A stretch of 44,238 nucleotides of DNA from a virus. The notes under the pieces were generated by a model. That model did no database searches. It was not told the DNA's origin and was given only the letters and a program-made list of their open reading frames with translations. The stretch spans positions 1 through 44,238 of IMG/VR virus record IMGVR_UViG_3300021364_000046; one strand, 5' to 3'. The translations under genes were made by a program, and so were the position numbers. Shown here piece by piece: positions 2,120-44,027 of this stretch; the stretch's first letter is position 1, and each line of letters begins with the position of its first letter.

Positions 2120-3217
2120 TCAGTTGAACCCACGGTTCCGACCAGACCAGGAGATAAGTTTGTGGATGTCCTCCACAGTGCTCTCCTGAGCAAATGTCAT
2201 ATGACGAGCATCAGGATGGTTCCACGAGAATACACGTCGTCCAAACGATGGTTGAATACCCACCGCTTCCATCACACGATCTTCAATCGATTGCATCTGG
2301 GTAGTCCAGAATGCGTTACGGTTGCTATTGAGCGTGTTCTTTTGTCCTTCAGGGGGAGCAACAGAGAAGATAATATGCAATGGTTTGTTCAATTGAACTG
2401 CCTGCCTATTAGCATTCAGAATACCACCAACACGCGACTCAAATTGTCCGCTGTTGATGTAGAGACAGAACTCTTCATCATTCTCCCAGATCTCTTCAAT
2501 CCAAGGATTGTCAGTTCGTTCAATCTTATCAAGGATGGCAACAGCACGGCGACCACTAATAGTGGTAAAACGATTGCCGTTGCTAACCTTGTTAGACATG
2601 GTGAACTCAACGAGGAGAGTATCTACAATTCTCTCACGTTGCTTGGGAGTAAAGTGTGTGCCCATGATATTAACACTGGCACGAACCTTATCCTCAGTAT
2701 AGATACCAGTTGCCTTGACAATCTCACGAGTGGATTGTTCAATGTCACCAACAGATGGGTTGGTGTGAGGCAACTCACTGATGACATTAGATGCATTAGC
2801 AAAGAGAATCTTTGCTTCAAGGTCACGGAACTTTACTCTTTGTACCATGTGACCTGGGATACCGCAGATATCATCTGCTTCAAGACGGTGATCACCATTG
2901 ACGCGATCGTCAGTGTCATCATCAATGTAGATAACTTCACCTTTTTCAAGGTCAATACCTACAGAACGATATGATTCAACAATATCGTTCACCTTCTTGA
3001 AGTTTGTACCATGGACACGACCAGGATTGATCCATGTCCTATTAATCATCTCCCTTAGAGTCATGTAGGGATCGCCAACTAGTTCAACGCCATCCACACC
3101 AAAGGTAGATGGTCGGTTCTTCCAGTTTCTGTGATCACAGCATTCAAGAGTCCAAATGTCGGTAACGAATTGTCCGAAACCTTCAAGGTTGGGAATGCCG
3201 AAAACAGTTTGTGTCAT
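2120..3217 (-). CDS. ParB-like N-terminal-domain protein, 365 aa
   Basis: Residues about 40-130 resemble the ParB/Srx-type domain. There is a VDGVELVGDP strand, a region that would set the helix, and the motif NGDHRLEA at about 107-114, close to the box II motif (G-x-H-R) of ParB-like nucleases/NTPases. The rest is of unknown fold and holds no partition-type helix-turn-helix that I can identify. A sigma70-like promoter lies in the end of the methyltransferase gene just upstream and a strong terminator follows, so it forms its own transcription unit next to the nuclease/methyltransferase pair. In phages ParB-like domains occur in DNA-modification and host-takeover proteins; the role here is inferred only from context. 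Confidence 0.6.
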   Translation of the reverse strand: MTQTVFGIPNLEGFGQFVTDIWTLECCDHRNWKNRPSTFGVDGVELVGDPYMTLREMINRTWINPGRVHGTNFKKVNDIVESYRSVGIDLEKGEVIYIDDDTDDRVNGDHRLEADDICGIPGHMVQRVKFRDLEAKILFANASNVISELPHTNPSVGDIEQSTREIVKATGIYTEDKVRASVNIMGTHFTPKQRERIVDTLLVEFTMSNKVSNGNRFTTISGRRAVAILDKIERTDNPWIEEIWENDEEFCLYINSGQFESRVGGILNANRQAVQLNKPLHIIFSVAPPEGQKNTLNSNRNAFWTTQMQSIEDRVMEAVGIQPSFGRRVFSWNHPDARHMTFAQESTVEDIHKLISWSGRNRGFN

Positions 3218-22200: not shown

Positions 22201-25200
22201 ACTCAACACCAACTTCTTTTCTGAATGGATCATAGAGAGAATCTTGATCAAATCCTGCAAGTTGTGATGCAGTTTGACCGATAAATTCACCTGGGTTCTG
22301 CTTGTTCTCAAAGCGAGCACCATATACTGTGCCAGTTACAGGCTTCAGTACAATCTTCTGAGGTACAAGTTTACGGGTGTCGTCAGTTCTTGTCTTGAGA
22401 ACAAATCCATTGATAGGATCTCTTGCATTCTCTAGGTAAGAAGGAATGACATAACGTAGTTTGTATGTTCTATCATCCTTGTCTCTATCATCCTCCAGAC
22501 GCTCGTACCACATGTCTGTGGATCTCTGTCTATCAGAGTAATCAGACTGACTGATTCTCCAGAAGATGTTATCATTGAGGACAGACTGTGGTTGAGCAGA
22601 ATCATCTCTACAGTTGATGTACCACTTACCAGTAGAAGTAGATCCATCAGTAAATGCTGGGTCAAACTTCATTGGTGTTCTACGCTTGTTAGCGAAGACA
22701 TCAAATGTTACACCACTTTGTCCAGCAGCAAACGAGATTGGATTTACATTTGCTCTTGCATCTGCTGGAGTCTTGTGAATCGAAATGATCTTAGGAGACT
22801 GATAGCGAACGTAGAATTCAACATTTGGATTGATTCTACCGAAGTTACCATCAAGAGGATCAGTTACAGCGACCAGTGGATCATTAATGTAACTCTGGGA
22901 GATGAGTGGCAAGTTACCACCTTCTGCTGCTCTGATGAATACCTTCTGAGGTGTTACACCATCGACAGGAATATCAAAGACGTGTGCTACTTCTGTTCTG
23001 ATTCTATCAGAAGACTCAAGAGAAGATGTGTATGCATGTAGATCATAGGACTCATCTAGAATAAACTGATAGATGTCAATCTCAACATCTCTGTCGATGC
23101 TATCAGTCTCAGAAGCATAGATGTATGTACCTGCTGCTGCATTCTCAGGAGAAGTTGCGAGCATCAGTGTTGTAGTTGCTTCACTATTCCAGAAGGAAGT
23201 GCCCGCATAGTTTTCAGGAGCAGTGAATCTACCAGGAGCGATTACATAGTAGGTTCTGTTTGTCTCGAAACCATTAGGTAGTCTGACGAGACGCTTGTCA
23301 ACATCAACATACTTACCTGTAACTGGATCAAAACGTGGACGTGGAACCAGTCTGACAGGTGTACCTGTCTCCCAGTTGTGTGGGTTAGATGCACCACCAC
23401 CAGTATCAATGGTGAATACAGTTGCTCTCTTAGAAAGAACAGTTGTGTCTACAGTCTGCTCTTGTCTAACAACTGTGCCAAGACCACTATTAATAATGGT
23501 AGTAATGACACCAATCAGTTGAGCAATTGCATTTGCAGTTCCCTCACACTCCCTGTAATTCTGAGATGTTAGACTATCAGCGATAACATCTGGGAAGACT
23601 TCTACACCACCCTGAGTCCATCCAGATTCAGGTCCAACCAAGACAGTGTTTACATCAGTGTCTGCCCATGCACCTTTCTCTAGTCTGAAGTGTAGGTTGA
23701 TGTTACCATTGTTGGTCTGAACAGCATTTACTGGGCTACCATCTTCTAGTCTAGAACCAATGGTTCCCAATCTAATTTGAGTACCATTTATAATCTCTCT
23801 AACATAGGCTCCTGCAGGAATAGTAGAAGTGACTTGAGTAATTGTACCACTATCAGAGAAGTTAAGTAGACCTTGGAGAGATGGTTGCTCTGCCGACCAA
23901 TCATAAGATGCTGCATCATACTCAGCAACAGACATACCAATTACAATACCACGAGTGTCACCAACATCTACGATGTCAGAACCAGCAGTAGTAGAGCAAT
24001 TATATGCAAGGAAGTCGAAGTTTCTCATGGCAGCAGTTGCCAACTGTCCGACGTAATCCCATGCATCTAGGGTCTCAGTCTTCTCACCATCAATGTAAGT
24101 GAGGTTGTTACCAACATAGTATGCTTCACCTGCTTGGATGCTGTTGATGTTACCACCAAGTCTCAAGTCATTGACAACAGCGTCAACGATGTAGGAAACG
24201 TCACGGAAGCACTTCGATGCTTCATTATTGATTGTGAAGTCGCCTTTGTTGAGTACAGGTAGACCAGCAAGAGAACCTGTACCGATTGCATCGGTAAGGA
24301 TATCAAATAGGTTCTCAATGGTGGAACGAACGTTAGCACAATCCCAGAGACCATTGGATAGTGGTGGGAGATCGTCTAGATTTCCAGCGAGAAGTGCGTC
24401 ACAAAGGATACCAGTTAGAGTGTCGATTGTTGCTAGAACATCCGAGCAGTTACCTACTGTATATACAGAAGGTTGATATGCTCTTGCAGCACGAGGATAT
24501 GCGTGCTCAGTCTTATAGTTATCCTTACCACACTTGAAGGCAATAGATTCAGTCTTCACCTTGACCTTAGTGCCAACAGGTAGACTGTGAGCACCAATAG
24601 TGAGTACAACATCACCAGATGCAGGATCATAAGTTGCAGCAGTTACATCCCATTCAACTAGAGGAGATGCACCAACATTAATTGTAATGCTGTAGTCAGT
24701 TACAGCAGTTGGATTGACATTCTGTCCGACGATAGAATCAGATCCAGGACGTGGATATACATGGTCGGCAGTGAAGTCGTCCATGTCACACTTGAATGTG
24801 AAGGAGTTGTCGTCAAGAGATAGTTGATCGCTGGTAGTTACACCGTGTGCTGCACCGAAGTACATCACAAAGTCACCAGTTACTGCATTGTAAGTTGCGT
24901 TGGTTGGAGTTAGTTGAGGACCATTAACAACGTTGACTGCACCAGCAGCAGCACTTACAAATCTGTGTAGATAGTTACCACCAGATACTACTGCACCAGC
25001 AGTTGCTCTGGAGAATGTATGTGGATAGAGGTGAGTAGAGGTTCCTACATTGATAGTGATTGTTTCTGCAGTAGCAGCAGTGATGTTGACTGCGGTATCA
25101 TATGCAGGATCCGCAGTAGCACCAGTTGTTCTCTCTGCAGTTAGCGTACCAACGCCACCATCATTTCCAATTGCCTGAATGATGATACCAAGTAGAGTAT

Positions 25201-28200
25201 CAACAGCACCTGCAGCAGAACCACAAGTAGGTAGCAGTTCATCAATATCCCAGTCATCAACAATCGTAAGATCCTTAGTCTGGGTTAGAGTGTTGCCAGC
25301 AGAAACAGTTACGGTCTCGTTTCTTAGAACTTGGATTGCAATGTTCTTGACTTCAGTGAAGACCTTAGCAGCTTCATCACGCTCAGCATCGATGAATGTT
25401 TCTACTGCATCACCATTGAAGATGTTAGTAACATAAACCTTAGCAGCATCATATGTCTTAGAGTTACCACCAAACTTAACATCCCACATTACCTCTTCTA
25501 GAACGTCATAAACGTCGTCTAGGCAATCCTGCTTGGTGTTACCAGCAGAAGGAGTGTAGAGTGGATATGCAGAGAGCATACGCTGATATGCTTCTTCAGC
25601 AATAAACTCTTTATTGTCAAGAACAAGATTATATGCATCAGCATGAATGTCTGATACAAATGGAGGATCTCCAACCTGATCAAGAGTAATGGTTAGATCT
25701 CTATCATAGTATTGGTTGTTTACTGCACGGTTCATTAGATCTGCAGCACGCTTGAATGCGGTGATAGCAGGTCCAACTTCATTGTCTACACCGTTAGAGA
25801 TGAGAGCATTCTGTGCGAAGTATTCTTTAGTTGCTGCGATAGTGTACTCGTTACCACCAAACCAGAGATCCTGTGCGATAGCATCAACAACGTGACCAAT
25901 GTCTCTACGGCACTTGCTTTCGCCAGTCTTGAAGGAACCTTCATTGTCTGGTTGGTTCCAGATTCCACCATTAATGTTACCAGCAGCAATTGCATCGGTA
26001 ACCAAATCTCCCAGTGTTTGAATTGCGCTCTGAACATCAGAACATGCTGCAGCATCTTGTCTATCGACATTACCACCAGCACCACCATACTCGGAAGCAC
26101 CTTCAGTTACAGTCAGATCCTTGTAGTATAAAGCATTGTATACTGCCTTTCTCATCTCCGAGATAGCAGCAGAGAATGCAGTGATGCTCTCTGCTTCTTC
26201 ACCTACAAGACCATTGCTTAGTGGTGTAGTAGCATTGGTGAAGTATTGTCTAGTGAATTCCTTGGTGTGCCTGTTACCAGCACAATACATGTCAACAGAG
26301 ACAGCATCGATAAAGTAACCAATGTCTCTACGGCACTTAGTTTCACCAGGACCAGCAGATCCCTTATTGATCTCAAGTGGCATACTGTTGAGGTTACCAA
26401 CAGTGAATACATCCTGAACAATAGTGTTGAGAGTATCAATCGCAGACTGAACGTCAGAACATAGTGCAGTCTGAGCATCAATCAATTGGTTTGCAGTGTT
26501 ACCAGCAAATGTAACTGCATCAGTTGCAGCACTTACAAATGTATGTTGACTGGTGTTTGTACCACCATCACCAACATTAACAGTGATTGTATCAGTGGTA
26601 GCAGCAGTAATTTCTAGGTACTGACCCGCAGCGGGGTCAGTATTTCTTGGATATGTGTGCTGAGTAGCATCACCATCCAGATCACAAGTAAAGGTTAGCG
26701 AGTCAGTAGCAATGGTGATATAGTCGCCAACAGACAGACCATGATTAGCAATGCTAAGAACCGTAGCACCAGTGTTTGGATCATAAGTTGCACCATGTGG
26801 AGTGAAACTCTTAGTTACCTGACCATATGCAGATCCAGGTGCATTGTCTGCAGTGATGGTTAGATCTTTTTCATATAGTTGATTGCTTACTGCCTTCTTC
26901 ATCATCTCAGCAGCTTTAGCAAATGCAGTTCTGCTCTCTGTAGTCTCACCTACAAGACCATTAGCAATTTGTGTGGTTGCATTAGTGAAGTATTCTGCAC
27001 AGAACTTCCAAGTGTACTCGTTACCATTAATGAATAGGTCAAGTGCAACTGCATCGACAAAGTAACCAATGTCTCTACGACACTTACTTTCACCTACTCC
27101 AGAGATATAAGAAGATTCTGCTGGTAGAGAATTCAAGTTGCCATTACTAATAGGTGTGGTGATGATGTCAACCAGAGTAGTAATTGTGGACTGAACATCA
27201 GTACATGCAGCAGAATTAGTGTTGGGAATAATTGTAGTTCCTACACCATACTCAGCTGTTCCAGCAGTAACAGTTCCATCAACAATGCTGAGTTGGTTAG
27301 CAACCGCAGCACGCATGAGATCACGTGCTTGGTTGAATGCTTCAACACTTTCAGTTGTCTCACCCTGTAGACCACCAGAGATCCAGTTCTGTCCAGTAGC
27401 ATCAAAGTATTCAGAGATAAACTTACGGGAATACTTGTTACCACCAACCATAAGGTCAAGCGATACAGCATCGATCAAGAATCCCATATCACGCTTACAC
27501 TTATCACCAAAGGTGTTACCACCATTGCCATCATAGTTTGGATACAATGCAAGCATATTTGCATAACCAGTATCAATGATTTCCTGGCGGTTTGCTTGAA
27601 TTAAGTAGTATGCATCTGCAAATCTAGAACGCTCGTCAGTCTGAGAGTCAAGAGGGAAGTAGAAATCACGATGATCGTATGCAATCTGTGCTAGTGCAGT
27701 ATCAACGATCTGATCTTTGTTCTGCTGAATGAGACGATATGCATCAGCATATCTAGAAGTACCATCAGTCTGCTGATCACCAGGGATATAGAAATCGGGG
27801 TGATTGAGTGCAATAGAAGCAAGTGCCTTGTCTCCAATCTCCTTGCTATTACGGCGGATCAGACGGAATGCATCAGCAAGTCTGGACTGATCATCAGTTT
27901 GGGAGTCGCCAGGAATGTAGAAGTCAGGATGATATACACTGATCTCTGCCAGTGCTGCGTCGAGAATGAAATCTCTATTGGCGACAATTCTGTTACGTGC
28001 ATCCTTGTTTCTGCCAGCAGGATCTTGCTTCTGAGAAACATCAATGGTTACGCCATTGGTTGTTAGTCCTGCTTCTTCTGCTGCAGAACCAGTGTAACCA
28101 GCATTAATACCATATGTTGTTAGTTCGCTGTTAGCATCAGGATCATATAGATCTGCTTGTACAGTCAACAGGTTAGCAATTGCTTTCTTGCAAAGATCTC

Positions 28201-30583
28201 TTGCTCTATTGAATGCAAAGATTGCAGGATCTTCTTCACCAACCAAACCATTGCTGATTGGATTACCAGCACCATCAAAATATCTTCTGGTTGCCTCAAT
28301 AATATTAGCGTTACCACCATCTCTGAGGTCTTCTGCAACTGCATCGACAATTAGACCGATGTCACGCTTACACTTATCACCAAAGGTGTTGCCATTATTA
28401 CCATCATAGTTGGGGAAAGTCTGAAGCATTGATGCATATGCTGCATCAACAATCTCTTGGCGGTTAGCAACGATTAGGTTACGTGCGTCGAAGTAACGGT
28501 TACCAGCAGGATTTAGACCAGGATTGACATAAGAAATGTTCTGAAGTCTAGGATACTTCTCTAGAATATAACCGAAGACTTCCTCTTGCATGAAGCGACG
28601 GTTAGACTCAATGAGGTTAGCAGCATCAGCATAGACACTGTTAATTACACCACCAGATGGGTTGAGGATAGAACCCTTTGCAACATACTTGACGAAACCA
28701 GTTGGTTCTAGGGATGCTTCAAACAGATTGTCCGTTCCAGGTGCTGGATCCAGTTTGACATATAGTTTATCATCAGACTTAGCACCAATTCTGTAACCAT
28801 CAATGGTAGCAGCAGGTCTAGTTCTAGGATCAGAGATCTCATCACTACCTAGGAATAGTTTGGTATAGTTACCACTAGTCTGTAGAGTACCTTGAATATC
28901 AATGGTGTAGTAGGCAATCTTCTTAGTGTTTGCCTGTGTATCTTCTACCTTTCTAGGTGGAATGATGTGAGTAATGTAACCACCCTTATCTTGGTTGAAG
29001 GAGAATCCTTTGAAACCAATAGCGTGTAGTGAGGTATTACCGAAGTTTGAGTTAGAGTTGGTGATCGACATGTCACCACCCGACTCCATCAGGAAGTGAT
29101 CAGCGAAACCAACCGCGAAGATCGAAACGTTCTGGATGAATGCGTCTTCAGATGCACGGACGTGGAAGTTTCTCCACTCATCCTTCCAGTAGGAATCACC
29201 CTTGGTGTGGTAAGGAACTGTTGCAAATGCGTCAGTTAGTGATGCTTGGTTCCAAGTATTGGTGTACTCATCGTAACGAATGAATGCTCTATCGTCTTTC
29301 TGGAGCGAAACACCCGTGTATTGCGCGATAACCATGGATTTGAATCCAGTGGCTTTCAGACCGTTTGCCCAGATTCCGCAAATACCCCATGTGGAGCGGA
29401 TAGATACGTTGAAAACGTAAGGAGATGCGGACTCAACCGAGTCAACTTCCGCGAGAGTTTGCGCGTTCTGACCTAGTGCTGGAGTAGTATCTACACTAAG
29501 AACTTTCTCTGAGGTGATGTTAGTTCCGATTGCCGTAGCAACAAATGGTACTTCATAAGTAAACTTACGAGCATCATTCTGATCGATCTCCTTAATCTGG
29601 AAGATACCCTCCAGTACATCATCAATCTCAGTGTTAGCGATAGCAACAAACTGACCTTGGAAGTATCCATGGTCTACCTTGGTTGTTACTTCAATCTCAG
29701 AAGTAGAAGCAGGGATGCTAGAGTCAGTTGTGTTATCGGTAATCTTCAGACTCTCAATAACTCTAGAGTCAGATAGAGGACCAACAATTCTGTTCTCTTG
29801 GACTCTCAGATCAAATTCGCCTGGGTCATCGATTGTTGGTTGATATGCAGAGAATGCCTTAGCAATCTTTCTGTAGAAGATACCTAGTTCTTCTGTATCT
29901 GCATATTCAAATACAGTTAGTTTGTGGTGAGAATAGTTAGGTGCTGTCTTCTTAGTGAAGTCAGTAGGATCATAGTAAACCTCACCAGTTCCTGCTGCAG
30001 TATTATACAGAGGAGACTCAGATGTAGTTTGACCATCCTTGATGGTAAACTGCCAGAAGTAACAACCACCAGTTACGTTGAAGATAGCAGAGCGAGGAAT
30101 CTCACGTTCCGTTGTTGCAGGATCAGGAACGTAGAGAGGACGAACAGTGGTTCTACGGAGGTCATAACCGACGAGGGATGAACCTCTAGGAATGATAGCA
30201 CCACCTTCAGTGTTGTTAAACTTCCAATAGATGTTATCAGGGTTGGAAAGATCTAGGATGCTGTCATCTGTCCAAGCATTAGTTCCTTGATCAAATCCAA
30301 ATACATCAATGCCACTAGTATCCAGTAGACCAGGGCGGTTATCGATATAGTGAATACCAGGCATCAGCATAATGCTGAACTGGTCAAATCTATCGTTGCC
30401 AAATCCAGGTAGATACGAATATCTTGCAATTTCTAGAAAAGCACGCTGGATGCTTTTGAATGGTGTTACAGGTGAATTACCTCTATTGGATAATGCATCT
30501 GTTGCATTGAAATCATCAGGAGAAACATAAAGATACTTACCAGTCTTAGAGCTGATAAGGTTATCCAGACGTGTTAATGGCAT
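16208..30583 (-). CDS. Giant virion structural protein, 4791 aa
   Basis: A single open frame of 4791 codons. The N-terminus (MPLTRLDNLISSKTGKYLYV, then NSPVTPFKSIQRAFLE) looks like the start of the very large structural proteins seen in T4-like cyanophages. Residues about 700-2200 hold at least seven degenerate copies of a module with the core KCRRDIGYFVDAVALDL plus CSDVQSAIDTL motifs, and three tandem 43-residue units (HPDFYIPGD-x-QTD) near 885-1000. The last third contains strand-rich, fibre-like sequence. It is preceded by a late-type promoter (TATAAATA at 30624-30631) and followed by collar-domain genes. It is probably a long tail fibre or baseplate-associated adhesin. Confidence 0.85.
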   Translation of the reverse strand: MPLTRLDNLISSKTGKYLYVSPDDFNATDALSNRGNSPVTPFKSIQRAFLEIARYSYLPGFGNDRFDQFSIMLMPGIHYIDNRPGLLDTSGIDVFGFDQGTNAWTDDSILDLSNPDNIYWKFNNTEGGAIIPRGSSLVGYDLRRTTVRPLYVPDPATTEREIPRSAIFNVTGGCYFWQFTIKDGQTTSESPLYNTAAGTGEVYYDPTDFTKKTAPNYSHHKLTVFEYADTEELGIFYRKIAKAFSAYQPTIDDPGEFDLRVQENRIVGPLSDSRVIESLKITDNTTDSSIPASTSEIEVTTKVDHGYFQGQFVAIANTEIDDVLEGIFQIKEIDQNDARKFTYEVPFVATAIGTNITSEKVLSVDTTPALGQNAQTLAEVDSVESASPYVFNVSIRSTWGICGIWANGLKATGFKSMVIAQYTGVSLQKDDRAFIRYDEYTNTWNQASLTDAFATVPYHTKGDSYWKDEWRNFHVRASEDAFIQNVSIFAVGFADHFLMESGGDMSITNSNSNFGNTSLHAIGFKGFSFNQDKGGYITHIIPPRKVEDTQANTKKIAYYTIDIQGTLQTSGNYTKLFLGSDEISDPRTRPAATIDGYRIGAKSDDKLYVKLDPAPGTDNLFEASLEPTGFVKYVAKGSILNPSGGVINSVYADAANLIESNRRFMQEEVFGYILEKYPRLQNISYVNPGLNPAGNRYFDARNLIVANRQEIVDAAYASMLQTFPNYDGNNGNTFGDKCKRDIGLIVDAVAEDLRDGGNANIIEATRRYFDGAGNPISNGLVGEEDPAIFAFNRARDLCKKAIANLLTVQADLYDPDANSELTTYGINAGYTGSAAEEAGLTTNGVTIDVSQKQDPAGRNKDARNRIVANRDFILDAALAEISVYHPDFYIPGDSQTDDQSRLADAFRLIRRNSKEIGDKALASIALNHPDFYIPGDQQTDGTSRYADAYRLIQQNKDQIVDTALAQIAYDHRDFYFPLDSQTDERSRFADAYYLIQANRQEIIDTGYANMLALYPNYDGNGGNTFGDKCKRDMGFLIDAVSLDLMVGGNKYSRKFISEYFDATGQNWISGGLQGETTESVEAFNQARDLMRAAVANQLSIVDGTVTAGTAEYGVGTTIIPNTNSAACTDVQSTITTLVDIITTPISNGNLNSLPAESSYISGVGESKCRRDIGYFVDAVALDLFINGNEYTWKFCAEYFTNATTQIANGLVGETTESRTAFAKAAEMMKKAVSNQLYEKDLTITADNAPGSAYGQVTKSFTPHGATYDPNTGATVLSIANHGLSVGDYITIATDSLTFTCDLDGDATQHTYPRNTDPAAGQYLEITAATTDTITVNVGDGGTNTSQHTFVSAATDAVTFAGNTANQLIDAQTALCSDVQSAIDTLNTIVQDVFTVGNLNSMPLEINKGSAGPGETKCRRDIGYFIDAVSVDMYCAGNRHTKEFTRQYFTNATTPLSNGLVGEEAESITAFSAAISEMRKAVYNALYYKDLTVTEGASEYGGAGGNVDRQDAAACSDVQSAIQTLGDLVTDAIAAGNINGGIWNQPDNEGSFKTGESKCRRDIGHVVDAIAQDLWFGGNEYTIAATKEYFAQNALISNGVDNEVGPAITAFKRAADLMNRAVNNQYYDRDLTITLDQVGDPPFVSDIHADAYNLVLDNKEFIAEEAYQRMLSAYPLYTPSAGNTKQDCLDDVYDVLEEVMWDVKFGGNSKTYDAAKVYVTNIFNGDAVETFIDAERDEAAKVFTEVKNIAIQVLRNETVTVSAGNTLTQTKDLTIVDDWDIDELLPTCGSAAGAVDTLLGIIIQAIGNDGGVGTLTAERTTGATADPAYDTAVNITAATAETITINVGTSTHLYPHTFSRATAGAVVSGGNYLHRFVSAAAGAVNVVNGPQLTPTNATYNAVTGDFVMYFGAAHGVTTSDQLSLDDNSFTFKCDMDDFTADHVYPRPGSDSIVGQNVNPTAVTDYSITINVGASPLVEWDVTAATYDPASGDVVLTIGAHSLPVGTKVKVKTESIAFKCGKDNYKTEHAYPRAARAYQPSVYTVGNCSDVLATIDTLTGILCDALLAGNLDDLPPLSNGLWDCANVRSTIENLFDILTDAIGTGSLAGLPVLNKGDFTINNEASKCFRDVSYIVDAVVNDLRLGGNINSIQAGEAYYVGNNLTYIDGEKTETLDAWDYVGQLATAAMRNFDFLAYNCSTTAGSDIVDVGDTRGIVIGMSVAEYDAASYDWSAEQPSLQGLLNFSDSGTITQVTSTIPAGAYVREIINGTQIRLGTIGSRLEDGSPVNAVQTNNGNINLHFRLEKGAWADTDVNTVLVGPESGWTQGGVEVFPDVIADSLTSQNYRECEGTANAIAQLIGVITTIINSGLGTVVRQEQTVDTTVLSKRATVFTIDTGGGASNPHNWETGTPVRLVPRPRFDPVTGKYVDVDKRLVRLPNGFETNRTYYVIAPGRFTAPENYAGTSFWNSEATTTLMLATSPENAAAGTYIYASETDSIDRDVEIDIYQFILDESYDLHAYTSSLESSDRIRTEVAHVFDIPVDGVTPQKVFIRAAEGGNLPLISQSYINDPLVAVTDPLDGNFGRINPNVEFYVRYQSPKIISIHKTPADARANVNPISFAAGQSGVTFDVFANKRRTPMKFDPAFTDGSTSTGKWYINCRDDSAQPQSVLNDNIFWRISQSDYSDRQRSTDMWYERLEDDRDKDDRTYKLRYVIPSYLENARDPINGFVLKTRTDDTRKLVPQKIVLKPVTGTVYGARFENKQNPGEFIGQTASQLAGFDQDSLYDPFRKEVGVEYREFAKFASGVQATIQSARYIPDAIDETIEYLELTVFDHAIDTRNFPGLRNEVLTTVKITAPQGGAFVTDKADNQAGDTNYARFEGNTSGNCNIHAYYTVNGEHYLIIKGIRNGTLEYSEFATTTFKQTQGSIEVFADMLEDQDMGKSLPLKTHIRKNFPEYYYKQNGANVYTITPGDRITDSAGVEYYVDSVKDAGIIEDTFYIFGYETLQRRIAGQQDGIYYLTCLRGNVSPFPTGAGVSNNFRRFKFSQPVSKLYPLNYKNDPLWFQNNGTSNEEKNYYAGLIDPPSAFSAADNYVHGLVTVNDFKNSVTREGIDDLLKQSAFIENSYEAGSNQIRAQRGNATAGSEDRLIPIAGDSTVVVDQRYYVELRRPSIARAGNHTFEYLGFGPGNYSTGLPARQEVVLTPEEDFYAQSKKQDAGIVFYTGINSQGDLYIGNRRINAITGEETFIDAAVLADDGDEDDTVGGLVTTFDTPVTFNQNITVVGGDGQLVNNFESPVTISVQDDDFTQQRDALIIRSNVSSVDPVTQLQQDEGLDRTAWAPPTEGDIRLSKNSIRSAIFQFNARGNGQSYMFQTHTVAGVASNATPNQSPLISAGGTRIASSQYITYGGVLPAPGDVLFKGEEVGKNGSIAWILANYFQQIANNSIDNIVFDGSNVVKLEFRDFTSGVALSNADIGITSTSQIRVSNFYYDPRLNLTWTVYASKPGDPFDPANNYCHFQVIDQIPQDTQAWEDIIAGTAQGADAPTIEFSNSNFKEVGVIGGEALRTETETIGDYKLGVNTIARSTHDAYRNAFVENLNTDPRANLDVVGNAYISGRKTPDYLSHTNFADRDKNRIPDALLVGGDSSAVADYATLRVSTETAVITESGRGNNEGKVGINATDAELDRALVVKGDSRFSEDARFERDIEVNGDASVAEIRTSQTTGTFNLIDDGTFTGTVNFGSQVTTLNMLNDTTDDQFINIGRASEHSNIWLGVTPDSAGAGISKVEIGGAYLNTNEDLSYTKIKTRNFRVDGDMWLGFRRGIGQTVELKSQASQVDFFSNSGGPSTLNFALNASEINIAGQGGKTTINNQLEVIASAKFNGDVHICGGVASFAFDGGRAQLGTDASAHEDGILSETLFNKNIDILNVLVKNPSDEGYNQVDTAGSGQWGGAAYQQSVNIGGVIEPTDLAEITESDQFYLPLKNQPVKANGDPYFGTNDYIIVDSGVVGTGSAATSHPEILQIVELTRINAAPYYVKVKRRPFGAFGGVLENHADTTPIYKVNVQFDATWTEQALDGNGPNDNVYLAEFGGALTNNDYIIVDRDDSPKTPEYIKVVAPLEQQVQKFRVSNCSDPDEDVFVVDSVTGEVTIGNPNIPGSILTINSSLEIDGGCGTLGSVQLRGDIEARSKTISNITIDTSNKTLADIKVGDAVKIITDSCPVKVLQDTKVDFIFGGVIYLDTPFVGGSSATNVSIVINRNELFTINDGGVNTTFEVDTCSGSTEIGTYVGRFDIGYAWSSNNSITTTAQLAAQLSTYDLSDVVAYGYYIDPQTTNEGGPATTIRAATATGSDPTKLQIPVQSVGTGSGRFEVGDLIAVGPVESFTGAGQLELLEVIEVIAPDSDIPTLVATRAQDGTVEMSHNIGDSVRRVIKHENWSRVTDAQIRQRLVGGSPTDYLSVILEKGYISQQKLDYKQWLRFSNKSNGEEVLTIVNGRLFGKTHTNVMDEQISDGAKSYRDGSLHVTNNLTLGGGDFVIYDSVRQTELFKFTNDDGHADHQGLLNWDAGVVARGDFFLYPASCPENVIQSLDCAPSFSIDNLGNGTIRTSLTITGEASPTPGTDAVLSVQNLGTNGADTLTVKQDRSIDAFGVTNFYTSNGARHTRYISAASPEADLTLTANIVYMVNVQPTQTLIVTLPSSAQTGDVVRLIDVGGNLKYDTTLVIRTPEASGTPIQGDSNGTLFGDRITPYPSGELVVQTANAAFALIYLGSSDSNNQIGIPTSVQGWWLMEV
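24190..28400 (-). repeat. Degenerate long repeats inside the giant structural gene
   Basis: The core motif appears as KCKRDIGLIVDAV, KCKRDMGFLIDAV, KCRRDIGYFVDAV, KCRRDIGYFIDAV, KCRRDIGHVVDAI, DCLDDVYDVLEEV and KCFRDVSYIVDAV. Each is followed at roughly constant distances by a yF..ng region and usually a C-x-DV-x-(S/A)xI motif. Spacing of the cores ranges from about 120 to 450 residues because other sequence has been inserted between modules. Confidence 0.8.
27590..27990 (-). repeat. Three tandem 129-nt repeats (43 aa) in the giant gene
   Basis: The segments encoding HPDFYIPGDSQTD, HPDFYIPGDQQTD and HRDFYFPLDSQTD are spaced exactly 129 nt apart (anchors near 27915, 27786 and 27657). Each is followed by a SR-ADA-LI helix and an anchor like LIRRNSKEIGDKAL. 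This is a recent-looking in-frame duplication nested in the older repeat array. Confidence 0.85.
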
Positions 30584-34982: not shown

Positions 34983-37868
34983 CTACGGACAATCAACGTA
35001 ACGACCAGTGCCGATCTTAGTAGCACCAACTGTAGATAGTCCATCAGTGTCTAGACATACCAAAGATGGCAACAATCTTGCGCCAGCTCCACCACCACCA
35101 ATAACTTTCACTTCTGGGAATCCCTCAAATGTTCTTGTTCTATCCAACATTTTAGCACCAATAACAAACCCATCACTATTAATTATCGCTTCAGCAAGAC
35201 CAGATTCCCCATTGACATAGACTTCTGGTTTATCCACATACCCAATTCCTGGTTTGATCATAGTGAATGTATCAATAATGCATCTCTTTCCTGCATTCTC
35301 AGAGAGATTTTTCTTGTATCCAAATCCAGGAGAAAGAATACGAATCTCTGTTAGATATCCCTCCTGATCTAAGAGTGCTGTTGCAGTTGCACCAAATCCA
35401 TTACCACCAATGAATACATATGGTGCTTCTGCCCATGGATCACCAGGATTGCTAATAGGAATCTCAATGATTCCTCCATTGTCATCAGTAATAACATCAT
35501 CGATAACAATTTCTGGTTCTCTAAACTCTTGATAGAAGTTCTCTGGTTTATCACCAACACCTTGATCAAAATCTTCTAGAGTTTGTTCGTTCAAAGAAAC
35601 AATCATAACTTCTGCAGATGCACCAGTGTTGATCAAATTAAATCTAAGAGTTTCTTCTTCTTCGACGACACCATCTTCTTCAATTCCAATCGTAACTGTT
35701 GCTTTGCCTTCGACAATAGTCAAGTTTCCGTCAAGCTTACCACCAATAATATCTTGAGAATTTATATTTCTGCCAAGCAATCTATAATACAGAATAGTTC
35801 CATCAGAGACGTTCTTTGTTCTAATAAAGAATTTGACAAATTCTCCCTCTTTACAAATACTCTTATCAGATGTGACTTCATATGTTTTTAGTCCAGATCC
35901 ATCATCCACTAAGGTATCGTCATCAATGTCATCTGGTATGCCGTCGCCGTCACCATCTTCAATAAAGACTTCATTGTCAAGAATATCATCAATTCCTTTC
36001 TCTGGATTGACTGGAGTACCTAGGTAAGGATTATATTCTTCTTCATCCTTAACTTGAGTAATTGTTCCTTGTCCGATATTTTTGGTAAATCCAGACTTGA
36101 TTCCACTAGATTCTTGTGGAGTGTTGAAGTCCAACTTGACATATACTGTTTCATCTTCTTCATCAACACTATCTACTAGAGTTTGAATCTCAATAGTTTT
36201 AGAAGTCTGTTTTGGTTGGAATCCTAAAATTCCATTTTCTGGGAAAAAGTCATCTTCCGCAGTAGCAGTTCCTTTATCTAGTGTCGTATATTTAACAGAA
36301 GATGCTTCGTCTAAGTAACCACTTCTGGTAACAGTGAAAACAAGTTTACCTCCCTCTTGTACGTTGGGATCGTTAATACTATAAAATATTTTTGGAGTTG
36401 CCGCAACCGTTCCATCTCCCCCTGGTAAGGGAACTCCTCCCGTAAATCCAATAGAAGTCGTCTCTAGTGGTTTTCCAGTAAATGCATCCTCACATGTATA
36501 TTGTGTGTAATCTGCAGGAGTATCGCCAAAAAGATCATCGATACCATTCAAAAGGTCATCTAAGAAATCATCATTCTTTTTATCTTTTGGTTTAGCTTCG
36601 CCATTGGTACAAACTTTCTTGTAGGTGCTACAAGTTCTATCAGGACCACTGCAAGAAATTCCAAGTAATTCTAGAACAAAGTTGATTGCTTGTCCAATAA
36701 TGTTTAGAGGCGCTGCAACTAGACCAAGAATATCTTGTAGAGGTCCAAGAATTTGATTAAGAAGTTCTGTAATCAACTCATTCATCTTGGAAATGATTCC
36801 ATTGATTAGAGTATCAACTTGACATACTGCCATGCGATAGATTTGATTGACAAAACTCATCAACACATTTGTCAACCAATCTTGCAGTCTCTTACCAAGA
36901 TCTGCCATCTCACACCCAAGATTCTTCAATGCATTATTGAAGAACTCTGTGACTGGTGTTAGGGCGTTACCCTTATCATCAACTCTTAGTAATGCTTTTA
37001 CTAATGCATCAACACCTTGCTGTAGAAGTTTTTTGATATATCCCTTTACTTTGGCAACAAATTCAGTAACAACAAGAGTTGCTTTATTAATATGTGTTCT
37101 TGCAGTAGCAATGACGCTATTTACACCACCAGTAACTTTATTGACATAAAAGTCACCAATGTTTCCACCACTACTCTGAATGTCAGCAAGTAATTGACCA
37201 ATAATAGTCTCCATCTGTTGACCAAGGTTTGGGTCCTTACATTTTTCTGCTGTAAGTTGACACCATTGCTCTCTTTCAAGTCTTGCTTTGATTGCTGGTG
37301 CTAGTGGGATAGATTCCACACCATCAGCTCTGGTCTTACCAGTAGAGAGACCACTATTTGTACTTCTAGTTCCGTCTTTTGCTGTTCCTGGTGTAGTTTC
37401 TGTAGGTGGTGTTTCTGCTACATCAGCACCATCCTTATATGGTTCTACTTGATACTTTGCACTAGGTCCAGTGATGAACGTAGGTCTTGGTAATTTTGGT
37501 TGATGGAAAATCTTTGTAGCGCCAGGAGTGACGCCAATAGTACCCATAATCAGGGGTTTTTGTTTATCCTGATCTAGATAAACACCAATGACCCAACAAC
37601 CATCGGTCATCTGGTCTCCAGCACCAGCAACGTTCCCTGGCATAAAAGGAACGTTGGCAGGCATCATCACGCTTGCCCATGGCAATTTTTCAGATGGAAG
37701 AATAGCGGGATCACCTGGGTGATCTCCAACTATTCTAACTCTGTGTCTATATCCACCTTTATTGCCTGGTTCGTCTTCTGCAGATTTTTCAATCTGCCCA
37801 ACCCACCAATTAAATCCGTCATGTCCGACGCGGTTTGTTGGAATCAGACGTGATAATGCCTCATCCAT
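34983..37868 (-). CDS. 5: gp5-like baseplate hub (OB-fold) with Calx-beta-like domains
   Basis: A 961-residue protein. The N-terminus (NWWVGQIEKSAEDE ... GYRHRVRIVGDHPGDP, DGCWVIGVYLDQDKQKPLIMG, about 20-130) matches the gp5 N-terminal OB-fold. Residues 210-430 are helical and Cys-containing. At about 490-600 (ASSVKYTTLDKGTATAEDDF) and 655-755 are Calx-beta-like domains, and 810-950 has repeated GFGYKK / GIGYVDKP units. There is no recognisable lysozyme (GH24-type) catalytic pattern between the OB-fold and the C-terminal part, unlike T4 gp5. It sits between CP12-like and spike genes, in the baseplate operon. Confidence 0.7.
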   Translation of the reverse strand: MDEALSRLIPTNRVGHDGFNWWVGQIEKSAEDEPGNKGGYRHRVRIVGDHPGDPAILPSEKLPWASVMMPANVPFMPGNVAGAGDQMTDGCWVIGVYLDQDKQKPLIMGTIGVTPGATKIFHQPKLPRPTFITGPSAKYQVEPYKDGADVAETPPTETTPGTAKDGTRSTNSGLSTGKTRADGVESIPLAPAIKARLEREQWCQLTAEKCKDPNLGQQMETIIGQLLADIQSSGGNIGDFYVNKVTGGVNSVIATARTHINKATLVVTEFVAKVKGYIKKLLQQGVDALVKALLRVDDKGNALTPVTEFFNNALKNLGCEMADLGKRLQDWLTNVLMSFVNQIYRMAVCQVDTLINGIISKMNELITELLNQILGPLQDILGLVAAPLNIIGQAINFVLELLGISCSGPDRTCSTYKKVCTNGEAKPKDKKNDDFLDDLLNGIDDLFGDTPADYTQYTCEDAFTGKPLETTSIGFTGGVPLPGGDGTVAATPKIFYSINDPNVQEGGKLVFTVTRSGYLDEASSVKYTTLDKGTATAEDDFFPENGILGFQPKQTSKTIEIQTLVDSVDEEDETVYVKLDFNTPQESSGIKSGFTKNIGQGTITQVKDEEEYNPYLGTPVNPEKGIDDILDNEVFIEDGDGDGIPDDIDDDTLVDDGSGLKTYEVTSDKSICKEGEFVKFFIRTKNVSDGTILYYRLLGRNINSQDIIGGKLDGNLTIVEGKATVTIGIEEDGVVEEEETLRFNLINTGASAEVMIVSLNEQTLEDFDQGVGDKPENFYQEFREPEIVIDDVITDDNGGIIEIPISNPGDPWAEAPYVFIGGNGFGATATALLDQEGYLTEIRILSPGFGYKKNLSENAGKRCIIDTFTMIKPGIGYVDKPEVYVNGESGLAEAIINSDGFVIGAKMLDRTRTFEGFPEVKVIGGGGAGARLLPSLVCLDTDGLSTVGATKIGTGRYVDCP

Positions 37869-39581: not shown

Positions 39582-42188
39582 TTATACTAAACTCTTGAGA
39601 TGCAATGTACTAGCAAACGTAAGTGATCCATGATTTGCCATACCAGCGGTAGCAAGACCAGCAGCAAATCCTTCCATTCCAGACGATTGACCCGTAGTTC
39701 CCAGACTACCACTTTGAATTTGCGCTGCTAATGCCATTAGAGCAGCCGCTATTTGAGAATTTCCTCCACTGGTTGACTTGAATTGTGCATTTTGCGTAAC
39801 AGCAGAGACTGTTAGTGGATCATTGACAGCAGCATTACTCGTAGGAGAAACAGTAGTTGGTGAAGATGCAGACTCAAGCGAAGCAGTGCCTTGAATGCTA
39901 GCACCATCTAGTGCTTCACCCGATGGTTTTGCGGTATCTCTGGATCCAGACATTCCATGTCCAACAAATGCAGTAAATCCAGAAATTGTACCACTTACAC
40001 CAAATCCATCACCTCTATCTCTAACACCATGAACACCTAGTGGGAATTTTAGTCCTTTTCTTCCAGCAATATCAACACCACCAAATGATCCACCACCCGC
40101 ACGTGCAGCGTGAGCTTTTTGCTCACGTTCGATCATCTTTCTTAATTCTTCATCTGAGGGTGGATTGTTGGGATCAACAGTCTCATTTGCATTAGTAAAC
40201 GTAAACTGCTCTTTATTTCTAATCAGTCCTTTGGCAACAGCAAATGCTGCTTTTCTTGTTTCAACTTTTCCTTGTGGTTTACCCCACAGAGCAGTCTCTG
40301 GTCCTAAGTGGAAGTGATCTCCACGAGAATTGCCAGTATTTCCTTGAATGAAACTTCTAGTGCGACTAGCACCTTCTCCTCCACCCGTATTAGGTTTTGG
40401 CATGAACTCATTCAAAGGTTTGTTCAGTACAGCTTCCCTTGCTGCAGTTGCTTTTTGAGTAGCTCTAGTTTGAAGAAACTGCTGTGATGCAGAACCAGTT
40501 ATAAGAGTAGGACTTCCGCTATTACGCGCATTTATTGCAGCTGCAGTTTGTTCTTCTTGATGTTCTGCTTCTTTAGAACCAGTTCCTGCCCATCCAAGGA
40601 AGTCCCACCATGCTCTACCAGTGCCACCACCAGTTCCACCAGAAGCGGCGGCAGTACCAAGTTCTGCTACATCTTTCTTACGATCTAGTTGAGCATCAAG
40701 GTATCCATCACCCATTGCTTTGAAGATCTTCTTCGATTCTGGACCTTCAGTAGAGAAAGTCATCTCTCTACCATGGTGCTCAACAGGATATCCAGATTTT
40801 GGACCATCCGTAATACCACCCGCAGCCATTTGTGGCATTGACATGTCGCGTGCCATCAATGCAGCGTCAAGTCCCACAGATGCAGCAGTTCCCAGACCAG
40901 GAATTAAACTTGCTCCACCAGAAGCGAGTTCCAGACCAGCACCAGTCAGATCCCCCGCCATTGCTCTTTGACCAGCAAACAAGGCACCAGCAAGGAGACC
41001 AATCGCTGGAATTTTCTTCAGTGCTGCCTTTCCAAGACCTTTTCCTAATCCTTTAGCAAGACCTTTTCCACCAATAGCTAGAGCAGTTCTTTGTCCTACT
41101 CTTCCAAGTCCTCTACCGAATACACCCTTACCTGTTTTTAGTGCTCCTCCAATACCTCTTCCTGCTCCTCTAAGAAGACCACCTGCTCCTCTGCGACCAC
41201 CGCCGAGAAGATTCATCAACCCACCACCAAGTCCACCTAAGATACCACCAAAACCTTTAGGTTTAGCAAGTTTAGTTGGATCTAGTTGATCACTTTGATC
41301 ATCAAAGTTTGTCTGTGAAGCTGCTAGGAGAGCTTGCTGACGGTCAGCAAGTTTCTGCTGCTCATCCTTCTGTCTCTCAAATAGTTGAACTTGATTGCTA
41401 ATCTGCTTTTCTGCTAGAGCAGCATTAAGTTGACCTAATCTAGAAAATCCTTGTGAAGTGATAGCAGAAGAACTCTGAATCGCTTGTACAGTATCTTGTG
41501 AAGATTGAGTGATTCTAAGTTCTACAAATTTCAGTGCTTTTACAATATCACTGATTTCTGTTGCATTGACATCGATAGCACCCGACTGAAGTGCTCCCAT
41601 CGATGATCCGCCACCCAGTCCAGGACCAGGCTCAGGAGGTAAAATTTCTGGATCAATAGCACCTGCAGGAGCAAGCAGATTGGCTGTTTTCTCTAATGAT
41701 CCACCAAGAGAAACAAATCCAGGAGATAACGCTGGGGGACCTCCACCTAAGGGACCATCATCTAATACAGAAACATTAACTGGTTCAATTGGATCTGGAG
41801 ATGCAATTGTAGATAATACACCACCAGTTATAGGAGCAGTGGGAATTTTTTGAGAATAATCGTAATCAAATCCACCCCTAAAACGACCCTGCTGAGTTTT
41901 TGTAGGATCTCTTCCTGCTGGGGGAGTAGACTCAAATCTACCTCTAGTTCTAGCAATTCTGTCACCACCAAAAGTGGATCCTAATGCTCTCTTGAAAAAA
42001 TGACCTCTTCCAACACCAGCTTCTGATAATGATGTATTATTCTTCTCGGCAACACTTTCAGCATAAGCACGCTCTCTGCGTGCCATGTCAGATGCCTTAC
42101 CAATTCTTTTCCCAATGCCACTAACGATCGCACCCGTAAAGTTACGTTCCTTTCGTAGATCTGTTGGGTTTAGAAATCCGTGTGCCAT
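39582..42188 (-). CDS. Tape-measure / baseplate hub protein (gp29-like position)
   Basis: An 868-residue protein. The N-terminus is basic; the middle (about 290-420) is Gly/Ala-rich with hydrophobic stretches (GFGGILGGLGGGLMNLLGGG, KIPAIGLLAGALFAGQRA), typical of a tape measure that sits in the tail tube. Near residue 628 is GDHFHLGPE and near 744 FVGHGMSG, reminiscent of M23 peptidase metal-binding residues, though the full site is not seen. Its ATG overlaps the stop of the frameshifted ORF (TAATG). The order gp26/frameshift ORF then this gene mirrors chaperone then tape measure in other tailed phages. Confidence 0.6.
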   Translation of the reverse strand: MAHGFLNPTDLRKERNFTGAIVSGIGKRIGKASDMARRERAYAESVAEKNNTSLSEAGVGRGHFFKRALGSTFGGDRIARTRGRFESTPPAGRDPTKTQQGRFRGGFDYDYSQKIPTAPITGGVLSTIASPDPIEPVNVSVLDDGPLGGGPPALSPGFVSLGGSLEKTANLLAPAGAIDPEILPPEPGPGLGGGSSMGALQSGAIDVNATEISDIVKALKFVELRITQSSQDTVQAIQSSSAITSQGFSRLGQLNAALAEKQISNQVQLFERQKDEQQKLADRQQALLAASQTNFDDQSDQLDPTKLAKPKGFGGILGGLGGGLMNLLGGGRRGAGGLLRGAGRGIGGALKTGKGVFGRGLGRVGQRTALAIGGKGLAKGLGKGLGKAALKKIPAIGLLAGALFAGQRAMAGDLTGAGLELASGGASLIPGLGTAASVGLDAALMARDMSMPQMAAGGITDGPKSGYPVEHHGREMTFSTEGPESKKIFKAMGDGYLDAQLDRKKDVAELGTAAASGGTGGGTGRAWWDFLGWAGTGSKEAEHQEEQTAAAINARNSGSPTLITGSASQQFLQTRATQKATAAREAVLNKPLNEFMPKPNTGGGEGASRTRSFIQGNTGNSRGDHFHLGPETALWGKPQGKVETRKAAFAVAKGLIRNKEQFTFTNANETVDPNNPPSDEELRKMIEREQKAHAARAGGGSFGGVDIAGRKGLKFPLGVHGVRDRGDGFGVSGTISGFTAFVGHGMSGSRDTAKPSGEALDGASIQGTASLESASSPTTVSPTSNAAVNDPLTVSAVTQNAQFKSTSGGNSQIAAALMALAAQIQSGSLGTTGQSSGMEGFAAGLATAGMANHGSLTFASTLHLKSLV

Positions 42189-42370
42189 TAGTGTGACGCT
42201 TCTGCTTGTTGTTTTTGCTGTTCCAGATATTGCATGAGGAGACTAACATAAACTTGTCGCTCCCAAGGCATCATATTTTCAATCTCTGTCAAGCTATATT
42301 TATGGTACTGCATCAAAGCAAAGTTAGTTCTGAAATACCCTTCCAAAGTATTATGGAAGAGTGCTATCCG
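42188..42370 (-). CDS. Start-less downstream ORF reached by -1 frameshift from gp26-like gene
   Basis: From CGG at 42370 the -1 frame of the gp26-like gene stays open for 60 codons (RIALFHNTLEGYFRTNFALM ... PWERQVYVSLLMQYLEQQKQ) to TAA at 42188. The frame has no ATG/GTG with an SD near its beginning, and is open upstream only to a TAA about 13 codons before the heptamer. The slippery heptamer T-TTT-TTC (42376-42370) in the correct phase sits just before the gp26 stop, so a 296-residue fusion is predicted. The ORF resembles the second half of tail assembly chaperones. An internal ATG in ALMQYHK lacks an SD. Confidence 0.7.
   Translation of the reverse strand, partial: RIALFHNTLEGYFRTNFALMQYHKYSLTEIENMMPWERQVYVSLLMQYLEQQKQQAEASH
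42294..42305 (-). promoter_or_regulatory. Possible late-type promoter inside the frameshift ORF
   Basis: Minus strand CCATAAATATAG, the same 12-mer found upstream of the gp54/gp19-like gene. About 110 nt before the tape-measure start. Confidence 0.45.
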
Positions 42371-43077
42371 AAAAAACTGGTCAATCCCGAAATGACGATT
42401 TTATTTTCAACTCCAGTGTTTGGATTTGTTACCGTAATGACATGTTCAAGTCTAGGAGTCGTTTCAAAGAATTTTTGAATATGCTCAAATTGGTTATTTG
42501 TCAATCCTTCTAAAAACTCACAAAACTCTTTTTTAGTAGTTGTAGAACTGTCATATACATCCTCACCATCATATAGTTGATCAATGCAACCAGCAATTGC
42601 CTCAATAACCTCATCTGCACCCATTCTTTTCTCAAGAATAGAACTAGACACAAATTCTTTGAATGACGGGTATTTCATAATTATACCCATAGTGTCAGAC
42701 AACTCAATCTTGTTACTATGGTCTTCTGGTTTGGAAACCTCGACATCATTCAAATTAAGATTATAGCGAACTTGCGTTTCTCCATCATCTTCGCAAGTAA
42801 CGTTCAATTCGACCACTTCGCCAACAGAGGCAGATCTAATTTTTAGGAAAATGTATTCTAAATCGAAAATTGCCAAATCTTCAACTTTAATGCGTGATTG
42901 AACGCATCCTTTGATGAGAGTCTTCATAGCACTCTCAATTTCTTTTTCATCTTCTCCTTCTAATGCCAAAAGAAGCAATTTTTCTTCTCTAACTACAAAT
43001 GGACGATATTTGATTTTTTTGCCAGTAGAAGGAACTTCCAACTCATAGGTTGGAAGAGATACTTGTGGTAATGCCAT
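42364..43077 (-). CDS. 26: gp26-like baseplate hub protein / tail assembly chaperone
   Basis: A 237-residue protein of the T4 gp26-type baseplate family (PF12322-like): YELEVPSTGKKIKYRPFVVR EEKLLL pattern at the N-terminus, IFDLEYIFLKIRSASVGEVV with a C-x-D strand pair in the middle, and a helical C-terminal half. It is slightly longer than T4 gp26 (about 208). It ends GLTSFFG, with the last codons forming a canonical -1 slippery heptamer (TTTTTTC) so that part of the product is predicted to continue into the downstream ORF. It follows the gp54/gp19-like gene in the late operon. Confidence 0.8.
   Translation of the reverse strand: MALPQVSLPTYELEVPSTGKKIKYRPFVVREEKLLLLALEGEDEKEIESAMKTLIKGCVQSRIKVEDLAIFDLEYIFLKIRSASVGEVVELNVTCEDDGETQVRYNLNLNDVEVSKPEDHSNKIELSDTMGIIMKYPSFKEFVSSSILEKRMGADEVIEAIAGCIDQLYDGEDVYDSSTTTKKEFCEFLEGLTNNQFEHIQKFFETTPRLEHVITVTNPNTGVENKIVISGLTSFFG
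42370..42376 (-). promoter_or_regulatory. Programmed -1 frameshift slippery site (T TTT TTC)
   Basis: In the gp26-like frame the codons are AGT TTT TTC GGA TAG, so the heptamer is T-TTT-TTC (42376-42370), in exact X-XXY-YYZ phase. Slipping by -1 continues in the ORF ending at 42188; the gp26 stop is only one codon downstream. Confidence 0.7.
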
Positions 43078-43169: not shown

Positions 43170-44027
43170 TCAATTTTCACGTTGCTGTGCTCTTTGTCTT
43201 GGAGTCAAACTTGGATCGTAAGGAATTACTTCCAATGGTACTGGTCCTGTTGGTTTTGCTGCTGGAGCAGGTTTTGTTGGAGTTGGTTGGGGCAACATTC
43301 CACCAGGAACTCTTCTTGTCCTGAGTTGACCAAATGGGGTCAAATATTGCTCTTCAATTATACCACCACCAACGTCTACTCTTCCAACAATTGTACTTCC
43401 AGGAACAACAGCACCTTCCATATCTTTGACATTTCTTACACTTAGTTTTTGAACCGTGTGTCTCTGATACTTGAATTGTGCAGTTACTCTGGTAACCTGC
43501 GCTTGTCCAAATTGCAGAGGAACAGAGTCAATTGCAAATGGCCATGCTTTATGAAGAATATACTTAATTGACTGCCTTTGTGTATCTCCTGTAGGACCTC
43601 TCTCAGTTTTTATGATTTCAATGTCACATGCGTATTGATGTCTATATTTGGGGTATGTTCTTCTAGCTTCACTGCCTTCATTTTGTTCATACCACATTGA
43701 ATCATACCAATCAGTAAGAATCTTTAGTGCCGTCATGTCCGCGTCACACATAAATCCCAACTGAACATCAGTAAAAACTTTAGTATGTGGATAATCTACG
43801 ATTCCAAGTCCAGTATGTAAACCCTTTATGTTGCCCGTATCAGTATTAATGTTTGGTAACTGCGCTTCCTCGCAAAATAGTTCAATAGTATCACTATAGT
43901 TTGTATATCCGCTCGTTATGACCGATGGTGGGTTGATAAGTCGTACAACAAAACTATTGGAGAACGCCATTCCCCCATTTGCTCCAATTGCACCCATGAT
44001 TTGATGTAGAGTCTTTCCTGAGGACAC
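43170..44027 (-). CDS. gp54/gp19-like tail tube initiator or tube-fold protein
   Basis: A 285-residue protein that starts with SSGKTLHQIMGAIGANGG, then FSNSFVVRL, ELFCEEAQLPNI and strand-rich sequence with WYDSMWYEQNEGSEARRTYP, typical of the gp19/gp54 tube fold. It is longer than a gp19 tube subunit (about 163) and closer to gp54 (about 320), which caps the baseplate and initiates the tube; this fits its place in the baseplate cluster. The C-terminus is Pro-rich. The start codon is GTG at 44027 (no good SD); an ATG at 43997 is an alternative. It diverges from the gp4-like gene across about 31 nt. Confidence 0.7.
   Translation of the reverse strand: MSSGKTLHQIMGAIGANGGMAFSNSFVVRLINPPSVITSGYTNYSDTIELFCEEAQLPNINTDTGNIKGLHTGLGIVDYPHTKVFTDVQLGFMCDADMTALKILTDWYDSMWYEQNEGSEARRTYPKYRHQYACDIEIIKTERGPTGDTQRQSIKYILHKAWPFAIDSVPLQFGQAQVTRVTAQFKYQRHTVQKLSVRNVKDMEGAVVPGSTIVGRVDVGGGIIEEQYLTPFGQLRTRRVPGGMLPQPTPTKPAPAAKPTGPVPLEVIPYDPSLTPRQRAQQREN

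Follow-up and report, generated by a model that had tools for sequence, protein, structure and literature searches.

A conserved predicted −1 frameshift site at the end of a gp26-like gene points to a G/GT-type tail assembly chaperone locus in a marine cyanophage and other T4-like phages

Introduction

How might a conserved reading frame be translated when it has no start codon of its own? The question is raised by a locus on the minus strand of the IMG/VR virus record IMGVR_UViG_3300021364_000046, an ocean cyanophage fragment whose positions 1 to 44,238 (44,238 nucleotides, nt) are referred to here as the window. At this locus, a gp26-like gene ends beside an open reading frame (ORF) in the −1 frame that continues for 60 codons toward the next gene. 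An original prediction, made from the sequence alone, held that a slippery heptamer joins the two in the manner of G/GT-type tail chaperones, whose short and long products act as chaperones of the tape measure protein (review PMC5009743). Comparison with related phages gives us strong confidence that the gp26-like gene forms, together with the start-less ORF, a single tail assembly chaperone locus of this type, at which ribosomal slippage very probably occurs.

The junction in the window

Read on the minus strand, the gp26-like gene closes with TTG ACC AGT TTT TTC GGA TAG, in which the heptamer T TTT TTC lies in exact X_XXY_YYZ phase one codon ahead of the stop, as the original prediction had described. 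From the heptamer, the −1 frame remains open to a TAA at 42190–42188, 60 codons past the slip, and this stop overlaps the ATG of an 868-residue gene in the sequence TAATG. The frame has no start preceded by a Shine–Dalgarno (SD) sequence; its first TTG is codon 9, and its first ATG, codon 20, already falls within the conserved domain. A −1 slip would yield a fusion of 296 residues and 34.1 kDa, with the junction sequence GLTSFFRIALFHNTLEGYF, beside a short form of 26.8 kDa. The open frame, the missing start, the overlap and the fusion length had all been predicted, and all are borne out by the sequence.

The short ORF matches Pfam PF12322 (E = 1.8e-72) and phrog_150 (E = 5.5e-79), and its AlphaFold model has a mean predicted local distance difference test score (pLDDT) of 85.7. 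The product of the −1 ORF matches phrog_634, annotated as "baseplate hub assembly catalyst" (E = 1e-28), together with positions 227–278 of phrog_150, and in a profile alignment it pairs with residues 199–244 of T4 gp51, beginning at the equivalent of the slip point. The features found here are those of a G/GT-type locus, namely a −1 ORF that overlaps the end of the first ORF without a start of its own, a conserved in-phase heptamer and a tail tube gene upstream. The proposal that gp26-like proteins are G/GT-type tail chaperones is supported by the PF12322 short form, the gp51-like extension, the conserved slip site and the gene layout.

Conservation of the slip site and of the −1 frame

Within the window genes, in-phase heptamers of the T6 type occur twice among 25 genes (13,024 codons), and the gp26-like gene is the only one of the 25 genes checked whose last 10 codons include an in-phase X_XXY_YYZ of any kind; only 0.017% of positions keep the −1 frame open for 60 codons. 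However, once a Phe–Phe dipeptide is present, codon choice alone would produce T TTT TT[TC] in about one quarter of cases (T at 38% of third positions, TTT for 69% of Phe codons). The single-sequence odds against a chance heptamer are therefore only moderate, and conservation was taken as the decisive test. Elsewhere in the window, a second in-phase T TTT TTC at 42000–41994 on the minus strand, within the 868-residue gene, was rejected as a slip site because the −1 frame there is shut after 10 codons.

All 80 loci nearest to the −1 ORF carry T TTT TTC in phase, one codon ahead of the stop. Because these loci had been recruited through the C-terminal ORF, a second search was queried with gp26 proteins from other phages. 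Across 275 gp26-family junctions, which are not fully independent as many come from close relatives, 263 combine an in-phase T TTT TT[C/T/G] with a homologous −1 ORF. In 245 of these, T TTT TTC lies one codon ahead of the stop and the ORF is in −1; in the remaining 18, the heptamer is T TTT TTC, T TTT TTT or T TTT TTG and the distance is 0–3 codons. Three other junctions carry the heptamer too near a contig end for the ORF to be judged. Heptamer, phase and ORF are thus kept at homologous junctions, and junctions lacking them, which would have spoken against the original prediction, are not the rule; a chance origin of the heptamer is ruled out by this conservation.

The junction occurs in cyanophages, in pelagiphages and in T4-like phages of Stenotrophomonas, Rhizobiaceae, Pseudomonas, Acidovorax and Aeromonas. 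Isolates that carry it include the cyanophages S-RSM4, S-PM2, Syn1, P-SSM2, P-SSM4 and syn9, as well as ACG-2014d and MA01, Methylophilales phage Melnitz-3, Pelagibacter phage HTVC008M, Stenotrophomonas phage DLP_6, Sinorhizobium phages phiM9 and phiN3, Pseudomonas phage Astolliot, Acidovorax phage ACP17 and Aeromonas phage Asswx_1; a Vibrio Schizotequatrovirus likewise has the in-phase heptamer and −1 ORF at this junction. T4-type junctions serve as a natural control, as they keep the FF dipeptide without an in-phase heptamer. Codon choice at the slip site is nearly fixed: the first Phe is TTT in 205 of 205 cases (69% elsewhere), and the second is TTC in 203 of 209 (31% elsewhere), although the C of the second codon is also required for an Arg that is conserved in the −1 reading and hence is not purely a slip signal.

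The −1 frame itself is under coding constraint. In pairwise comparisons among 211 representatives, the ratio of nonsynonymous to synonymous differences (pN/pS) in this frame was 0.22 for codons 1–18 past the slip and 0.12 for codons 19–48, whereas the same DNA read in its other two frames gave 1.4 and 2.1. Purifying selection on the −1 frame therefore starts at the first codon past the slip, ahead of any ATG. The 263 complete −1 ORFs all extend 55–68 codons past the slip, and the position of their first ATG varies and is not conserved. In GenBank records, the start assigned to "gp51" differs among S-RSM4, S-PM2, Syn1, P-SSM4 and Sf-FR1, and the extension is unannotated in ACG-2014d.

Elements flanking the heptamer

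The original prediction called for a search for a stimulatory structure downstream, and a hairpin was found there, separated from the heptamer by a spacer that falls within the 5–9 nt expected of a canonical bacterial −1 frameshift cassette. In the window, the stem-loop has a folding energy of −12.6 kcal/mol, with z-scores of −3.2 against dinucleotide shuffles and −3.8 against synonymous recodings that keep the −1 protein. Among 71 relatives, the mean z-score near the slip is about −3 against synonymous recodings and decays to about 0 by codons 15–20 of the −1 ORF. Stem codons are restricted in the window's group, where codon 4 (Leu) is CTC throughout and codon 11 (Gly) is mostly GGG, and 94.6% of cells in the hairpin alignment are paired, with several G–U changes. 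The hairpin is thus selected beyond the protein sequence.

Most relatives also carry an SD-like element, GAGG or GAGGG, 6–10 nt ahead of the heptamer. It is under synonymous-site selection in these phages (z about −12), and the ratio of GAG to GAA at the corresponding codon is 136:28, compared with 722:1551 overall. Among relatives, a stronger SD-like element was not found to go with a weaker hairpin or the reverse (Spearman 0.06). A scan for consensus promoters and terminators was uninformative here.

Several points weigh against the interpretation developed here. The SD-like element is weak in the window, where the match TCGGGATTG reaches a minimum of only −4.1 kcal/mol, and it is weak in S-RSM4 too; for this reason the hairpin is the clear putative stimulator in the window's group. 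Compensatory changes in the hairpin are few, amounting to one pair changed from C–G to G–C in four sequences. Although HK97 tail assembly chaperone gp13 (2ob9) is the top PDB match of the short-form model and appears twice among the first four, as would suit the chaperone role, the E values of 0.5–0.9 are individually non-significant. The 868-residue downstream gene is called a probable tape measure gene solely from its place and length, as it has no Pfam match and its PHROG matches are "endolysin", "peptidase" and unknown families. Finally, whereas the sequences themselves establish the phase, the conservation, the coding constraint, the selection on hairpin and SD-like element and the homology to T4 gp26 and gp51, slippage, its efficiency, the long protein and the chaperone role are inferred.

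Gene neighborhood

The features of the locus are collected in Table 1. Elsewhere in the window, the tail gene region contains a single ORF of 4791 residues (16208–30583, minus strand), and a gp5-like hub protein (34983–37868, minus strand) carries a Calx-beta domain (Pfam E = 2e-13) besides its gp5 OB domain.

Table 1 Features of the predicted tail assembly chaperone locus in the window
Feature	Coordinates	Strand	Evidence
gp26-like gene, putative short tail assembly chaperone form (TAC-N), 237 residues	42364..43077	−	PF12322, phrog_150, AlphaFold model
Slippery heptamer T TTT TTC, X_XXY_YYZ phase	42370..42376	−	direct reading, conservation, Phe codon choice
TAG stop of the short form, one codon past the heptamer	42364..42366	−	direct reading
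−1 frame (putative TAC-C, T-like domain), 60 codons and TAA, no start codon of its own	42188..42370	−	phrog_634, pN/pS, alignment with T4 gp51
Putative downstream stimulatory hairpin, 9-bp stem, 8-nt loop, 7 nt past the heptamer	42337..42362	−	folding z-scores, relatives
Place of the relatives' upstream SD-like element (GAGGG); weak match TCGGGATTG in the window	42377..42400	−	synonymous-site selection in relatives
868-residue gene, probable tape measure protein	39582..42188	−	position and size only
Tail tube protein gene, upstream of the gp26-like gene	43170..44027	−	Pfam PF23849 Phage_TTP_2, E = 1.4e-66

Proposed mechanism and alternative explanations

We propose that most ribosomes would end at the TAG and release the 237-residue short form, whereas in a minority the two tRNA-Phe paired with TTT and TTC would slip back on T TTT TTC to pair with TTT and TTT. 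The hairpin 7 nt downstream would promote slippage, as would, in most relatives though scarcely in the window, the SD-like element upstream. Ribosomes that had slipped would read 60 further codons to produce the rarer 296-residue long form. If the two forms act as lambda gpG and gpGT do, the short one may coat the tape measure protein, while the C-terminal extension of the long one may recruit tail tube subunits.

The −1 ORF could also be a gp51-like gene in its own right, with translation beginning at a start codon of its own or by termination–reinitiation. A separate gp51 coding sequence is indeed annotated in S-RSM4, S-PM2, Syn1, P-SSM2 and others, and 110 of the 263 loci have an ATG at codon index 3 past the slip, near the stop, as would suit a start of its own. 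Yet the annotated starts vary among phages, and in 233 of the 263 loci none of the first 25 codons is a start with an SD sequence ahead of it. The spacing of the GAGG element fits the heptamer rather than that ATG. The first ATG in the window is codon 20, inside the conserved domain, and purifying selection acts on the codons that precede it; no SD-preceded or conserved start for a separate long gene, as in the T4 arrangement, was found. As an independent start would moreover leave the conservation of heptamer and hairpin unexplained, we consider it very unlikely.

Less likely still is that the joint product arises by transcriptional rather than ribosomal slippage on the run of T residues. The run comprises six T at the window site and eight in HTVC008M, six being short for slippage by a bacterial polymerase, and three features point to translation: a strictly kept codon phase, a hairpin at ribosomal spacing and, in relatives, the SD-like element. 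That a sequencing or assembly error has split one real ORF can be practically dismissed: one contig does contain an uninterrupted fusion, described below, but more than 260 loci show this split, isolate genomes from many laboratories among them, a breadth that refutes error. Ribosomal frameshifting at the heptamer thus stands as the preferred reading of the locus.

Variant junctions

A few junctions depart from the common pattern. In a 236-kb viral contig (L153), the site, around position 2214, reads TCTTTTTGGTTAGG, and both parts lie in one uninterrupted ORF with apparently two bases fewer, representing either a natural fusion without a short form or an assembly error. Synechococcus phage S-SCSM1 (L086, around 2981–3010) has an apparent 11-nt insertion just past an intact heptamer that shifts the extension into the +1 frame; ribosomes slipping by −1 would meet a stop within a few codons, whereas relatives 76–79% identical have the normal −1 layout, and the insertion is either a real variant or a sequencing error. 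In a further locus (L184), the frame is broken upstream of the site.

An apparent variant was noted in Ackermannviridae (L100, L280, L282, L285–L302) and in Vibrio phage D504 (L281), in which gp26 is followed by a conserved −1 ORF with an MPW motif like that of the cyanophage extension. Instead of T TTT TTC, their sites read GAG ATT TTC, GAA ATT TTC, CAG GTT TTC or TCA CTT TTC, the first of these continuing as GAG ATT TTC ATT TAA in Ackermannviridae. Most of these −1 ORFs have no ATG near the beginning and carry Ile where a few have Met. The CAG GTT TTC site resembles that of T7 gene 10, and the lack of an early ATG in most of these phages suggests frameshifting on a T7-like site.

Comparison with described systems

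The tail assembly chaperone genes of T4-like phages were identified by Vladimirov, Gautam and Davidson (Virology 2022), according to the papers that cite them (PMC10274946, PMC12846349). Of these, the PRFect paper (PMC10274946) attributes to that work the finding that in T4-like phages the short and long forms of the chaperone come from two genes, whereas PMC12846349 cites it for −1 frameshift signals of the polyT type in the TAC-N genes of such phages. Since these signals are credited to Vladimirov et al. in PMC12846349, the frameshift is not new in kind, having already been proposed for some T4-like phages, and the earlier caution that the arrangement might be undescribed for this group is outdated.

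In T4, the proteins corresponding to the two forms, gp26 and gp51, both belong to PF12322, as does the short protein of the window. T4 gp51 consists of the short domain plus a C-terminal extension and matches the same profiles (phrog_150 and phrog_634) as the −1 ORF product. However, the short and long forms of T4 are encoded by two separate, divergently oriented genes, whereas in the window they are joined at the heptamer. Frameshifting reportedly appears conserved in several T4-like groups, T4 using genes 26 and 51 instead.

The chaperones of Pakpunavirus and Andersonviridae (PMC12846349) likewise have a conserved polyT motif (GTTTTT) and a −1 extension ahead of the tape measure gene, although they belong to other phage families and use another slip motif. 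Lambda G/GT (review PMC5009743) similarly produces a short form and a rarer −1 long form near the end of the short ORF, adjoining the tape measure gene, but it involves another protein family and another slip site (tRNA-Lys in the review figure), in contrast to the U UUU UUC and hairpin of the window, with an SD-like element often added in relatives. A literature search found no paper describing a frameshift at the end of gp26 in cyanophages or Ackermannviridae. The three-part signal of SD-like element, heptamer and hairpin, its breadth and the apparent Ackermannviridae variant may be new; no description of the hairpin, the SD-like element or the variant was found.

Implications

These findings would call for corrected annotation in hundreds of T4-like genomes, in which the C-terminal part of the chaperone is either absent or listed as a "gp51" of its own whose start is questionable. 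They also favor a role as tail assembly chaperones for gp26 and gp51, which have long been catalogued among baseplate hub proteins. With the hairpin and SD-like element flanking it so closely, the frameshift could be tested in a short reporter construct.

Across T4-like phages, we lean slightly toward the view that the ratio of short to long chaperone is controlled by a recoding cassette of modular build, with parts that have been gained and lost. It would comprise an SD-like element, heptamer and hairpin in most marine phages; a hairpin with hardly any SD-like element in the window and S-RSM4; in Ackermannviridae, a T7-like N NUU UUC ahead of a −1 ORF that has no start; and two separate genes in T4. 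If true, these phages would constitute a natural experiment on what determines the ratio for tail assembly and on how two genes come to take the place of frameshifting.

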